DNA from: Bacteroidia bacterium
GTDB taxonomy: Bacteria > Bacteroidota > Bacteroidia > Chitinophagales > Chitinophagaceae
NCBI GenBank assembly: GCA_030426665.1
Contig: JAUHYD010000018.1
Location: 1-64,000, forward strand
DNA: 64,000 bases
Reading direction: 5' to 3'
The position numbers and the translations under genes were made by a program. Positions 16,621 through 22,385 of the stretch are shown here, in pieces. Position 1 is the first letter of the stretch. Each line of letters begins with the position of its first letter. The notes beneath the pieces are model-generated. The model saw nothing but the letters and a program-made list of their open reading frames with translations, was not told the origin of the DNA and searched no databases.

Positions 16621-16849
16621 TACTATTACCTTTTTGCTATTGATTTCCACTATAATAATAATCAGGAAAGCATACTAAGTAAATAGTTTGTGTTAAATTT
16701 GTATATATGTTGTTGTTGTTCATTTCTTATTAAGACATCCTTTAACAGATGCTTTGCCAAATAGTTTATGCAAAAAGAGTTGGGGATATATAATTGTATT
16801 AATTTTAGATTATAAGATTGTAGTAATAAACATAAAATACAAACCACAT

Positions 16850-17266
16850 ATGAATTATCTTGAAAATTTTCTCATTATAGATGACGATAAAATCAATAAC
16901 AAGTTATGTCGTAAAATAATTGAAAAGACTTATCCTTCGTCGGAAATAGTCGATTTTACCGATCCTGTCGAAGGGTTTAGGTATTTAGAAAATACTTTTT
17001 CTGCACCTGACACGAGTAATGGTGCCATTTTGTTACTGGATATAAGCATGCCGGTATTAAATGCCTGGGACTTCCTTGAACAGTTTCACACTTTGGATGA
17101 GATCGTTAAGCAAAGAGTCTGTATATATATACTTTCGTCTTCTGTTGACGTTCGGGACATGGAGCGTGCCAACGCTAATCAATATGTCGAATATTACCTT
17201 ATCAAGCCATTGACAAGAGAGTCAATTAAACTTATGGTATACGCATTGGCCAAAAAGAAAAAATAG
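16850..17266 (+). CDS. Single-domain response regulator
   Basis: 138 residues from the ATG at 16850 (MNYLENFLIIDDDKINNKLC). It has the acidic pocket IIDDDK, the phospho-acceptor Asp in LLLDISMPVLNAWDF, the Ser in YILSSSVDV and the conserved Lys in YYLIKPLT. No output domain follows. Such CheY-like proteins are usually phosphorylated by a distant hybrid or soluble histidine kinase; none is in this window. It is not obviously co-transcribed with the ECF sigma gene 284 bp downstream. Confidence 0.92.
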   Translation: MNYLENFLIIDDDKINNKLCRKIIEKTYPSSEIVDFTDPVEGFRYLENTFSAPDTSNGAILLLDISMPVLNAWDFLEQFHTLDEIVKQRVCIYILSSSVDVRDMERANANQYVEYYLIKPLTRESIKLMVYALAKKKK

Positions 17267-17550
17267 TCGTTTTTATATAATGCCTGGAGTATCGTAGAAC
17301 TACCTGTTGGCGTTTACGGTGATATGCATTTTTTAACTTTGTATTTGCGGGTTTATAGGTGATAGCAAAAAGTAAACTTCAAATATAATTCGACCTTTAC
17401 AGTAAATTACTTTGTTCTGGCGCTAACATTTTTTATGTATAGTACGCCTATGAATAAAGTAGGTAATGATCCGTTTTTTAATTCGTAGATTATTATTCGG
17501 TATTGTTAGCTTGGGTATAGTTTGTTTCATTAATAAAGAAGGCATGAGCA

Positions 17551-18147
17551 TTGGCTAAAGCGATTGATGTGAGCAGTCATTTTCCTACTTCAGAACAACA
17601 CTTGTCAAGACATGAGGAGTTGCGCGTTCTGATACGGGAGTGTATTGCCCTGTCAAGGCTATCTCAAAAACGCCTTTATGATATATATTCACCTGCTGCC
17701 TATGGTATTGTCAGAAAATATATTCATAATAATGAGCAAATTGCGATGGAGATCCTGAACGATGCTTTCTTTAAAGTTTTCAGAGACCTGCATCAATATT
17801 CATTTCAGGGGGCGTTTGAGGGCTGGATTAGGCGAATAGTCGTTCATACGGTGAGTGACTATCTCCGTAAGCACATGAAAACAGAAAGGCTTACCAGAGA
17901 AGTGCAACCTGAAGATGCCTATGTGAATAGTGAACCGGTGGCCAATATGTCGCATAAAGAGTTATTAGCAATAATTGAAACCCTACCGGATGCTCAAAGG
18001 AACATTTTTAATCTGTTTGTTTTTGAGAATTACTCTCATAAGGAAATAGCAAAAATGTTGGGTATGAAGCAAAACAATTGTAGATGGCACCTGAATGATG
18101 CTCGTAGAAGGTTAAAAGAAAAAATTAACGCATTAGAAAATAGGTAA
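17551..18147 (+). CDS. ECF sigma factor paired with a Dma-like anti-sigma
   Basis: 198 residues with sigma region 2 (SQKRLYDIYSPAAYGIVRKY, EQIAMEILNDAFFKVFRDLH, GWIRRIVVHTVSDYLRKHMK) and region 4 (LPDAQRNIFNLFVFENYSHK, EIAKMLGMKQNNCRWHLNDA). It starts with TTG at 17551, preceded by AAGAAGG; the GTG at 17569 is an alternative. The stop is 2 nt before the next gene, so the two are one operon and coupled. The partner is a transmembrane-plus-beta-barrel protein, as for the sigma factors regulated by dual membrane-spanning anti-sigma factors in Bacteroides thetaiotaomicron. Confidence 0.9.
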   Translation: MAKAIDVSSHFPTSEQHLSRHEELRVLIRECIALSRLSQKRLYDIYSPAAYGIVRKYIHNNEQIAMEILNDAFFKVFRDLHQYSFQGAFEGWIRRIVVHTVSDYLRKHMKTERLTREVQPEDAYVNSEPVANMSHKELLAIIETLPDAQRNIFNLFVFENYSHKEIAKMLGMKQNNCRWHLNDARRRLKEKINALENR

Positions 18148-18149
18148 AC

Positions 18150-19703
18150 GTGGAAAATAAAAAAACACACATCGATGACTTATTCCGGGATAAACTCGGT
18201 AGTTATTCGGAGCGCCCCCCGGTTGGCTCGTGGAATAACATGGATGCAAAGTTAGATTTGCTGGGTGGTGGGATTCCGACAACAGCGGCAACTTCGTCGT
18301 TTAGCCTGGCTTCTCATATCGGCATGGTTTCATTGATTGCCGTATTGGGAACTTCATTCGTTCAGAAGTTTATAAACAACGATAGTAAGTCTAAAATAGA
18401 TACTATCAGTAAGTTAGATGCTCATAATTCTATTAAAGATGTAGATGGTGTGTCGGAGAGTAGATCAATTACTCCGGTTGCGATGAATGAAAACGACAAG
18501 GATGATGATGGCAATCGTGATTTGGATAATTCCGAAATAGGTACTCTCGCTGGTTCGGGTAATGGTGAATCTCAATTGTCTGAAAATGAAGATATTGCAA
18601 CAGACAATAGAAGGAAAAGTTCTAGGTCTGAGGTGTTGAAAGCTGCTGACGCTTCCGGTGGTACTTCAAAGGTTATCGGGGCGGTTTCATCAGGTAATAG
18701 TATGGTAGTTGCGTCGACAAGTACCACGGGCACAAAGGGTGATGCAAAAAAGCCGGCACCTGAAGTTTTAAATGAAGTGAATGAATATAACGGCAATGTA
18801 AATGAAGTAGTTGGGAAAAATGCCAATGAGCATGCTGCTGTTGATGTAAACCGAAAACCAGATGCAAGAGTTCCGGAAATTGCTGCCAAAGTATTAGACA
18901 ACCCAAAAGCAAAGCCCGGATTTTCTCGTTGGGGAGTGGGTGTAAAAGCTGGCTATGAAAGGGGATTTGATAAATCTGGTTCAACGAAATATTTGGTGTC
19001 CCCATATGTTGAATATAAAATTACACCGAAGTTTGCCATAATGGTGCAGCCTGCTATTAAATATGCACAGGCGCCAAATAGAATAATTGGTGACGCGCAG
19101 ACATATTATGACGTTAAGTCAGACGGCAATGTTTCAGATAACGGAAGCAATACATCAGTAAAAGTAGAGGGTAGTACGGTTGTAACCTATTATAATGCAA
19201 AGTACCGTTATACGCAGGTGTACGACAGTATTGTTAAGACTAACACTTATGGCGGTGCATATATGGAATACGAACTTCCTGTGCTTGCCAAATATAATGT
19301 CACTGAGAAACTTGCATTGTATGGTGGTGTAAATATGATATACAGTCAGATGAAGGGTGTTAAAGAAAATACTCAAATTATTTCCGGACTTATAAATTCA
19401 AAAGATACCATGATTTCCTCTACTTCAGGAATGACTCCTGCTCCGGCTATCGGGCAAGTACTTACTTATTCTGGTGCACAATTTTCTGATTACAACGGCC
19501 CCTTATACCCTGCCACCCAGGAAAACAGTCTGCGTTTTGGTGCGATGCTGGGTTTTAGTTATGAGTACAGTGACAGATGGTTGCTTGATGCACTGGTACA
19601 GAAAAATCCGGCGCCAAGAGATGTCAGGGGAGGCGTAAATATCAACGCGCCTTTGTCATCCGCTTATTTCCGATTGGCAATTGGATACAGGATTGCTAAG
19701 TGA
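18150..19703 (+). CDS. Dual membrane-spanning anti-sigma (Dma)-like protein
   Basis: 517 residues from GTG. Order: a short cytoplasmic N-terminus (1-40: IDDLFRDKLGSYSERPPVGS, WNNMDAKLD); one inner-membrane helix (about 54-72, SHIGMVSLIAVLGTSFV); a low-complexity, Asp/Asn/Ser/Gly-rich periplasmic stretch (about 75-245) with no fold; and an outer-membrane beta-barrel of PorT/OMP_b-brl type (about 253-517, WGVGVKAGYERGFDKS to YFRLAIGYRIAK). There is no signal peptide, so the order places the sigma-binding end in the cytoplasm and the barrel in the outer membrane. This is the layout of Dma factors that gate ECF sigma activity. The position directly behind an ECF gene supports it; binding is inferred. 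Confidence 0.8.
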   Translation: MENKKTHIDDLFRDKLGSYSERPPVGSWNNMDAKLDLLGGGIPTTAATSSFSLASHIGMVSLIAVLGTSFVQKFINNDSKSKIDTISKLDAHNSIKDVDGVSESRSITPVAMNENDKDDDGNRDLDNSEIGTLAGSGNGESQLSENEDIATDNRRKSSRSEVLKAADASGGTSKVIGAVSSGNSMVVASTSTTGTKGDAKKPAPEVLNEVNEYNGNVNEVVGKNANEHAAVDVNRKPDARVPEIAAKVLDNPKAKPGFSRWGVGVKAGYERGFDKSGSTKYLVSPYVEYKITPKFAIMVQPAIKYAQAPNRIIGDAQTYYDVKSDGNVSDNGSNTSVKVEGSTVVTYYNAKYRYTQVYDSIVKTNTYGGAYMEYELPVLAKYNVTEKLALYGGVNMIYSQMKGVKENTQIISGLINSKDTMISSTSGMTPAPAIGQVLTYSGAQFSDYNGPLYPATQENSLRFGAMLGFSYEYSDRWLLDALVQKNPAPRDVRGGVNINAPLSSAYFRLAIGYRIAK

Positions 19704-19862
19704 TTTTTCATATAAACCTTATCTTTTTTTCTTAATTTTGAATTGATCTTAATCAGCAGTTTTATATAGCCCGTCACCAGTATTTGCCTTTTCGGTTTTA
19801 TTGAGTGTTTTGCATTTATTATTGCAACAGCGTATGTGAAAAAAAAAGAATAATTAAACGCC

Positions 19863-22385
19863 ATGAACAAATGTCTATACTGTCTGTATTGTATAGTTTT
19901 TATATTTGGCTTTAATATTCAATCAAGTGCGCAGATTATTTCTGATTTTGCCGGTAACGGAACAGTCGGTTACTCTGGTGACGGTGGTGCAGCAACGCTG
20001 GCGCAACTTGATTCCCCCTCATGTTTGGCCTTAGATTTAAACGGAAATATATACATTAATGATCAGTTCAATAATTGCGTTCGTAAAGTTACCCCCGGGG
20101 GCGTAATTACGACAGTTGCCGGTAATGGTTCCTTTGGTTTTTCGGGGGACGGCGGACCGGCAACAAATGCTAAGTTCAGCTCTAATTGGGGTGTGGCAAC
20201 TGATGCTTCGGGAAACTTATACATAGCAGATCAGTTAAATCACAGAATTCGTAAAGTAAATACTTCAGGTATTATAACTACTATAGCCGGGACGGGAATA
20301 TTGGGCTTCTCCGGGGATGGTGGTCCGGCATCTGATGCAAAGATGAGCTTCCCGCTGGCAATTACGGTCGACAAAGATGGAAATATCTATTTTGGCGACT
20401 TCAACAACTTCAGAGTTCGGAAAATTAATACAGCCGGCGTTATTTCGACCTATGCAGGTACCGGTATTAGTGGGTATAGCGGAGACAACGGACCCGCAAC
20501 AAATGCACAATTAAGCTACATTTTTGGTTTGGCAACTGATTTGAGTGGTAATCTGTATATATGTGATGCGCAAAATCACAGGTTACGTAAAGTTGATGCA
20601 ACGGGCAGGATATCAACAGTAGCGGGTAATGGGTCTTCTGTTTATTCCGGAGATGGATTTCCTGCTACTGCGGCGGGCCTAATCAGGCCGGTAGGCGTAT
20701 TTGTTACTCCTTCAGGAGTTATTTATATTACAGACGCTAATGATAACAGAATCAGGAAGATAGGGCGTGGTGGTATTATTGAAACCATGGCAGGTACCGG
20801 GGTTCCTGATTATTATGGTACGGGAATTTCGGCTACATCAGCACGATTGCATAGCCCCATTGGAATAGTGGTGGATACAAATGAGAATGTATATTTTTCT
20901 GATTTGATGAATGTTAGGGTTAGGAAAATTACTAATATTTTATCCTTTGTAAAAGGCGATGATGAATTACTTGCGGTTTGTGAGAATTCGGGTCCTGTCG
21001 AAATAAATGAGCTCCTTGCAGTAAAAGATGTATATGTGGGATTGACAGATGTATGGACACTGGAATCTGCGGCGGCACATGGTACTGCCACCGTGGGTTA
21101 TTCCGCAACGTCGTCAGGAGGTGTAATTACTCCGGTTGGGCTTACTTATACTCCTTATCCCGGTTATTCTGGAAATGATTCGTTTAAAGTCAAAGTAGCA
21201 AATGCATTGTCTTCGGATATAATTACCGTATATGTAAGGGTAGACCCTATGTTGTCGGCCGGCGTCATAGAGGGACCTTCGCAGGTGTGTGTCGGGGAAT
21301 CTATAATTCTGACTGATACTGCTCGGGGTGGAGTTTGGGTCACAGCTACCGGAAGAACCTCATTAACTCCTACTGATACCGGCACAAGTTGTAAGGTACT
21401 TGGGGTAACGCCAGGGGTAGATTTGATTGAATATCAGATTACCAACGCATGTGGTACTGCTGTTGTTAGCAAGTCTGTAACGGTAAATCCATTGCCATTT
21501 CCAGGTACTATTTTAGGGCCAGATGCTATTTGTATTGGATCATCGGTTCAATACAATGCTGGTATTCCGGGAGGGACATGGAGCACCGAGAATGCGAAAG
21601 CTGTTGTTGGGCCGGATGGGCTGGTAAAAGGGGTTGCTCCGGGTGTAGCTACAGTAAAATATTCTGTTGCAAATACCTGGTGTGTTGCCGCTACGATAAT
21701 AAATGTTCAGATTGATACTTTTCCGTCGCCAGGTACTCTTAATGGCCCTACAAGCGTTTGTGTGGGGTCTAGCGTCAGTTTGTCAAACTCGATTCCCGGC
21801 GGAGTATGGAGTAGCTCAAACGGTATGGTTTCTGTCAATTTCGGTGAAGTGACTGGCCTGATTGTCGGTAGTGATTTTGTAAATTATAGTATTACCAATT
21901 CGTGTGGAACAGCTGTAGCAACCATACCGATGACCGTTAAACCGGTTCCGGAAGTTCCTGAGATAAATGTGTACCGCGGGACATTGTATACAACAGGAGG
22001 GTATTCGGTGTATCAGTGGACATATAATGGGGCTGAGCTGCCCGGAGCAACAAATGATTCACTCTTTGCACAGAAGACTGGTAGTTATCAAGTTAGCGTT
22101 ACTACCGCAAGTGGCTGTTCGAGCAGCTCCGATATTTTCAATTATCCCGGTTGTGACCCCGAGGATATCTTAGTTTTTCCGAATCCTACAATCGACGAAA
22201 TTGATATTTCGTGGTGTAAAAAAGTGACAGCAAAACTGATGGCGGCTGATGGAAAGATGGTTTTGCTTGCTAAAAATGTAGATGTCCTGCATATTGGAAA
22301 TCTTGCAGCCGGCGTATACCTATTAACACTACACGACAATTTGGGAAATAAATTGAAAACGACGAAAATTCTGAAATTAAAATAA
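19863..22385 (+). CDS. NHL-repeat and Ig-like T9SS-secreted protein
   Basis: 840 residues: signal peptide (about 1-24, ending IQSSAQ); six NHL-type propeller repeats of about 54-56 residues (about 25-360; each shows YSGDGGPAT, then GN-Y-I-D, then RIRKV and G-I-T-AG); a bridging domain (about 370-460); three Ig-like repeats (about 465-740) of the same class as in the giant gene at 58608 (GVIEGPSQVCVGES, PGTILGPDAICIGSS, PGTLNGPTSVCVGSS); and a T9SS sorting domain (VFPNPTIDEIDISW to KTTKILKLK). It is probably a surface adhesin or binding protein; the ligand is unknown. It is monocistronic. Confidence 0.9.
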   Translation: MNKCLYCLYCIVFIFGFNIQSSAQIISDFAGNGTVGYSGDGGAATLAQLDSPSCLALDLNGNIYINDQFNNCVRKVTPGGVITTVAGNGSFGFSGDGGPATNAKFSSNWGVATDASGNLYIADQLNHRIRKVNTSGIITTIAGTGILGFSGDGGPASDAKMSFPLAITVDKDGNIYFGDFNNFRVRKINTAGVISTYAGTGISGYSGDNGPATNAQLSYIFGLATDLSGNLYICDAQNHRLRKVDATGRISTVAGNGSSVYSGDGFPATAAGLIRPVGVFVTPSGVIYITDANDNRIRKIGRGGIIETMAGTGVPDYYGTGISATSARLHSPIGIVVDTNENVYFSDLMNVRVRKITNILSFVKGDDELLAVCENSGPVEINELLAVKDVYVGLTDVWTLESAAAHGTATVGYSATSSGGVITPVGLTYTPYPGYSGNDSFKVKVANALSSDIITVYVRVDPMLSAGVIEGPSQVCVGESIILTDTARGGVWVTATGRTSLTPTDTGTSCKVLGVTPGVDLIEYQITNACGTAVVSKSVTVNPLPFPGTILGPDAICIGSSVQYNAGIPGGTWSTENAKAVVGPDGLVKGVAPGVATVKYSVANTWCVAATIINVQIDTFPSPGTLNGPTSVCVGSSVSLSNSIPGGVWSSSNGMVSVNFGEVTGLIVGSDFVNYSITNSCGTAVATIPMTVKPVPEVPEINVYRGTLYTTGGYSVYQWTYNGAELPGATNDSLFAQKTGSYQVSVTTASGCSSSSDIFNYPGCDPEDILVFPNPTIDEIDISWCKKVTAKLMAADGKMVLLAKNVDVLHIGNLAAGVYLLTLHDNLGNKLKTTKILKLK

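Follow-up and report, generated by a model that had tools for sequence, protein, structure and literature searches.

In the window, i.e., the whole stretch of 64,000 nt that was analyzed, an ECF sigma factor gene and the gene directly behind it probably form a sigma/anti-sigma switch. Here, a single polypeptide would connect cytoplasm and outer membrane, and the sigma factor would drive its own operon as well as T9SS surface proteins. This reading is drawn from sequence comparison and structure prediction, namely from the architecture of the second gene product, its pairing with a sigma gene across relatives, and a promoter signature that recurs ahead of the predicted targets. The original prediction had likened the protein to the published Dma (dual membrane-spanning anti-sigma) proteins, and architecture together with sigma pairing bears this out. 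It had also spoken of an undescribed member, which is fair for the window protein, though the kind itself is already known.

The sigma factor gene (17551..18147, + strand, 198 aa, with an inferred TTG start at 17551) was assigned by Pfam and NCBIfam. Its ORF matches Sigma70_r2 (3e-10), Sigma70_r4_2 (1e-13) and TIGR02937 (1e-25), where the general TIGR02937 is the only model whose cut-off is passed among the best 25 of 95 NCBIfam matches. Compared to its intact relatives, the window sigma is 56-82% identical. The gene of the Dma-like protein follows after 2 nt (18150..19703, + strand, 517 residues, with an inferred GTG start at 18150), such that both ORFs of the predicted pair are in place. For this protein, nothing is found above the Pfam or NCBIfam cut-offs (OMP_b-brl_2 stays below with E=0.066), and a sequence search of the PDB returns two matches only (E 0.04 and 0.5), both to proteins of other kinds. 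A response-regulator receiver gene (16754-17266) is located ahead of the sigma gene.

The prediction had listed a short N-terminal end, one helix, about 170 disordered residues and a barrel. All four parts are recovered, with a disordered stretch of about 180 residues. The presumed cytoplasmic anti-sigma segment covers residues 1-42 (18150..18275, + strand). Among 47 sequences, M1, D9, P23, W28 and L35 are invariant (47/47), and four of these positions are internal (D9, P23, W28, L35). The predicted inner-membrane helix (residues 53-76; 18306..18377, + strand) is based on hydropathy, where the best 19-residue window begins at residue 53 with a mean of 1.8, and on a modeled helix of low confidence. 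It is followed by the disordered periplasmic tether (residues 77-256; 18378..18917, + strand) and by the C-terminal outer-membrane beta-barrel (residues 257-517; 18918..19700, + strand). The tether length varies from 150 to 701 aa in 50 sequences, which fall into two groups of about 150-250 and about 490-700 aa, with one sequence at 350.

The AlphaFold2 model of the 517-residue protein is based on an alignment of 14 rows of named relatives and shows overall a mean pLDDT of 62 and a pTM of 0.46. Helices are modeled for residues 8-16, 27-39 and 53-91, where the membrane helix reaches block means of pLDDT 41-54. Within residues 77-256, the pLDDT is below 50 almost throughout, i.e., for 77-240 and 242-256. 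The strands of the barrel span residues 261 to 516, with 20/26 ten-residue blocks at a pLDDT of 80 or more and the rest at 61-78. When the model is compared with the PDB by Foldseek, all 50 matches listed are outer-membrane barrels, e.g., OmpX (1qj9) with a target TM of 0.60. Normalized to the whole 517-residue query, the TM values are just 0.11-0.20, because half of the query is not barrel.

With regard to topology, KKRR or similar residues are found just N-side of the helix in many relatives, which fits the expectation for a cytoplasmic N-terminus. For the window protein, a reading by eye gives several positive charges behind the helix and none ahead of it, contrary to the positive-inside rule. 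A cleavable leader, which would speak against the original prediction, is unlikely since the hydrophobic stretch starts only at about residue 53, behind the conserved N-terminal block. Co-folding of the sigma factor with the N-terminus results in a poor model (mean pLDDT 47). The N-terminal 42 residues would bind the sigma factor, and one molecule is presumably inserted in both membranes.

We studied whether the pairing is retained among relatives. A single-sequence search finds matches in 34/35 genomes of the genus and in 0/25 genomes outside of it. Within the genus, 57 loci of 61 places were examined (left out are G006:C251, G014:C237, G019:C140 and G023:C24; at G019:C140, which is L011, a sigma ORF adjoins too). 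The N-terminus is present in 55/57 loci, while the other two are truncated by a contig end. For all of these 55, including L051 and L052 with a frameshifted or broken pair, a sigma ORF is located directly upstream, and its end overlaps the start by up to 4 nt or precedes it by up to 19 nt. Relatives at 10 loci stem from lake metagenome assemblies (uncultured Bacteroidetes bacterium or Chitinophagaceae bacterium). A profile of the N-terminus matches 182/395 sampled genomes of the class at E 0.001, the own genome counted. We inspected 30 further loci, i.e., one pair of the own genome and the 29 best matches among the other genomes of the class, and an upstream sigma ORF is present in 30/30 with its end at -17 to +61 nt relative to where the profile match begins. 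That is, homologs lacking a nearby sigma gene, which the original prediction had named as evidence against itself, do not occur among the examined loci.

In addition, the distances among sigma factors, N-termini and barrels correlate with r=0.57-0.73 for 50 pairs, while the maximum in 999 permutations is 0.16. Given the 55/55 pairing and this correlated divergence, the neighborhood of sigma and barrel genes is more than chance. An unrelated barrel gene that merely happens to lie beside a sigma gene is thus hardly credible, also in view of the 30/30 loci from the class survey, and the neighboring sigma factor is presumably the cognate partner of the anti-sigma protein.

The class loci also reveal how the protein is composed. 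The long one-piece form is found in 24/29 loci, where 21/24 match OMP_b-brl_2 (E <= 0.01). The other five (L120, L126, L131, L133, L137) encode a short form in which no barrel is seen, and behind each of them lies a separate gene that starts like a leader. Of two such separate genes compared with OMP_b-brl_2, one is over and one under the cut-off. The N-terminal part and the barrel therefore occur as split and fused versions, and the profile matches indicate that Dma-like systems are widespread in the class. At L121, near position 1389, the N-terminal anti-sigma motif is present in two tandem copies.

The own genome holds four pairs, namely that of the window and those at C22 (889 aa), C40 (813 aa) and C43 (403 aa). 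OMP_b-brl_2 is over the cut-off for C40, and no barrel match is found for C43. The barrels of two of the own-genome paralogs share about 41% identity. At C29 of the same genome (L104), a leader-bearing gene with OMP_b-brl_2 just under the cut-off is located behind an apparent anti-sigma gene of another type.

Downstream of the window pair, a linked partner gene (19863..22385, + strand) encodes an NHL-repeat protein with an Ig-like domain and a T9SS type A tail (TEN_NHL, NHL and TIGR04183 over the cut-off, Big_9 below). In 23/25 window-type loci, an NHL-type gene of equal orientation is located no more than 1500 nt downstream, with L041 and L062 as the two without. Loci of the second type, i.e., of the paralogous pair, show a divergently oriented gene upstream that encodes about 300 aa in 21/30 cases. 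At the start of the NHL gene (19875-19896), CTATAC...GTATAG may form a hairpin, which recurs in some orthologs.

Next, we consider the promoter signature. The predicted sigma-dependent promoter CTAACATT-N14-CGCCTAT is located at 17423..17451 (+ strand), 99 nt upstream of the inferred sigma start. The pattern CTAAC-N16-18-CGCCTA is found upstream of the sigma gene in 19/21 loci and 0 times in 300 shuffles, where the shuffle test is not independent since the motif was first read from those same leaders. An independent test is provided by the genome-wide search with the exact window-type pattern, which yields 63 sites in 27/35 genomes of the genus versus 0 in the reversed control. Beyond the genus, 98 further genomes of the order hold 0 sites (control 4). 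The second-type pattern has 16 sites in 12/35 genomes (control 1).

The two types differ in their -10 core CG[CT]C. Leaders of the window type show CGCC in 23/25 cases and never CGTC, while second-type leaders show CGTC in 28/30 cases and never CGCC. Neither core is found in L051, L064, L078 and L083, of which L064 and L083 begin near a contig end. From these statistics, the window sigma factor would use CTAACATT-N14-CGCCTAT as its promoter.

For the own genome, the exact pattern has two sites, namely ahead of the window sigma gene and ahead of a gene for a 1002-aa T9SS-tailed protein; the one-mismatch site belongs to the paralogous sigma gene. Allowing up to two mismatches in a 14-base version gives no excess over the control in this genome (30 vs. 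41). By eye, no such promoter is present in the leaders of the C40 and C43 pairs, and generic scans for promoters and terminators in the window stretch stay at shuffle level. Ahead of the NHL gene, the promoter is found in 0/21 leaders of 260 nt, such that this gene is probably transcribed with the sigma operon or from another promoter. A one-mismatch 14-base site of the own genome (L246; C10:160392-160419, minus strand) is located 85 nt before an apparent primary sigma factor gene, possibly by chance.

We then investigated which genes follow the sites. Among the 63 exact sites in the genus, 19 precede sigma genes and 44 do not. Within 500 nt, 34 of these 44 non-sigma sites have an ORF of at least 190 aa. 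For 22 of them the target gene is complete. The T9SS tail model of type A is matched by 19 of these genes and that of type B by two more (L218, L225), which leaves L221 as the sole complete target that matches neither. The remaining 12/34 target ORFs are incomplete in the sequence examined, and their leader-like starts were judged by eye. The predicted targets are large surface proteins, many with Ig-like repeats. T9SS tails are common as such, with at least 150 type A matches in the own genome (320 candidates). Nevertheless, a few hundred tailed genes in a 4.6-Mb genome cannot account for 21/22 tailed targets. For the second type, 7 sites are located before sigma genes and 9 are not, where 8/9 of the latter precede genes with a leader-like start (by eye). 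The predicted regulon of the sigma factor thus comprises its own operon and T9SS-exported surface proteins.

The other 10/44 non-sigma sites, which lack an ORF of this size in the same range, are of a different kind. Nine of them (L200, L208, L217, L219, L223, L229, L231, L233, L237) look like small RNAs, eight as identified by script and L229 by eye; for the tenth (L224), a leader-bearing ORF starts just past 500 nt. A terminator-like hairpin with a T-run starting 139-205 nt downstream is found for 8/10 gene-less sites, compared to 2/35 ORF sites and 38/400 random stretches drawn from the loci studied. The nine sequences share repeated C-rich words and contain CCTAT 21 times (shuffle mean 4.6, maximum 11), where two pairs among them are near-duplicates. 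Rfam shows no match at these nine loci or within 17000-20200 of the window. In some relatives, the gene-less sites may thus represent sigma-dependent small RNAs. No probable small-RNA site was found in the own genome; one such site, which adjoins an aldehyde dehydrogenase gene in four relatives, is not found beside that gene in the own genome. Just past the anti-sigma stop codon (19713-19723), and at orthologous loci of several species, there is a word like TAAACCTTATC, which resembles words in the probable small RNAs.

Taken as a switch, the pair would work as follows. The 42-residue N-terminus would retain the sigma factor at the inner membrane, which is spanned by the single helix, while the disordered tether would span the periplasm and the barrel would reside in the outer membrane. 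A change of the barrel, caused by a surface ligand or by outer-membrane stress, would serve as the trigger. Most likely, tether and helix would then be exposed to stepwise proteolysis such that the sigma factor is freed, where both the release step and the signal are presumptive. The free sigma factor would recognize CTAACATT-N14-CGCCTAT and raise its own operon; its further targets would be large surface proteins exported by the T9SS and, for some of the relatives, probable small RNAs. A more far-reaching and clearly tentative version is a closed surface loop. Here, the barrel would sense the state of the surface, perhaps the NHL T9SS protein of the adjacent gene. The sigma factor freed by the same polypeptide would renew giant surface proteins of the T9SS, and in some species it would also fire small RNAs by which other envelope genes are trimmed. 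Two loops of this kind within one genus would be kept apart by a single -10 base (CGCC vs. CGTC).

Other explanations differ in which part of the system they reassign. The barrel could be an anchor only. In that case, the protein would report on periplasmic distance or integrity, and tension or cleavage of the tether would be the signal instead of a surface ligand. The two groups of tether lengths would suit such a role, as would the split version that retains the tether without the barrel. On the other hand, similar barrels are combined with widely differing tethers, and the identity of about 41% between the own-genome barrels is presumably more than a plain anchor needs, which renders this explanation rather unlikely. 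We consider it improbable that the helix is a cleaved signal sequence and the barrel an ordinary protein of the outer membrane whose gene is co-transcribed with that of the sigma factor. An ordinary exported protein would indeed have such parts, namely a single hydrophobic segment close to its N-terminus and a barrel. However, about 52 residues precede the helix, the first 42 of them conserved, and the same N-terminus is also found in proteins that lack a barrel and whose gene adjoins a separate one with a leader.

The promoter itself might belong to another regulator with the sigma pair as one of its targets, given that sigma factor and promoter are linked by co-occurrence alone. This is quite improbable, since the -10 core tracks the paralog with no exchange between the two types and the exact motif is absent from the 98 other genomes of the order. 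Furthermore, autoregulation is usual among ECF factors. We therefore retain the sigma/anti-sigma switch as the preferred reading.

According to the accessible part of the respective report, Dma proteins of Bacteroides thetaiotaomicron consist of an N-terminal sigma-binding region, one helix, a long disordered tether and a C-terminal barrel, with an ECF sigma gene adjacent for Dma1 and Dma2 (PMC13088901). Deletion of dma2 is described there to raise das2 and neighboring genes, and effects are given for Dma1 on nigD1 and for Dma2 on its own operon and PULs (PMC13088901). By these descriptions, the window protein is alike to Dma1, Dma2 and Dma3 in its predicted layout, and to Dma1 and Dma2 in its adjacent sigma gene. 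It differs from what is described for them by its predicted T9SS-exported targets, the conserved NHL partner gene and tethers of up to 701 aa in its relatives. The promoter sites indicate an output that differs from the NigD and PUL genes of B. thetaiotaomicron.

An ECF sigma factor linked with T9SS is also described, in the accessible text, for PorXY-SigP of Porphyromonas gingivalis, where the T9SS-tailed PorA is proposed to pass on a signal from the surface (PMC7712824). As far as that text goes, PorXY-SigP relies on a two-component system next to the sigma factor, and it is the T9SS machinery that it controls, while the system at hand would use a one-piece anti-sigma protein and control T9SS cargo (PMC7712824). 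Similarly, the targets given for the SM6 promoter class of Flavobacterium psychrophilum in the accessible part of its report include T9SS machinery, unlike here (PMC9723704). Within the literature searched, outside of which most subscription journals lie, no report of the present system was found.

Dma proteins are a recent class, for which the functional work in the accessible literature comes so far from Bacteroides. The sequence data indicate that the arrangement extends across the class in split and fused forms. In one lake genus, it is accompanied by a promoter code that can be read, and the predicted regulon of surface-exported proteins is coherent. Given this code and regulon, it becomes directly testable what Dma barrels sense and which roles their sigma factors play outside the gut.
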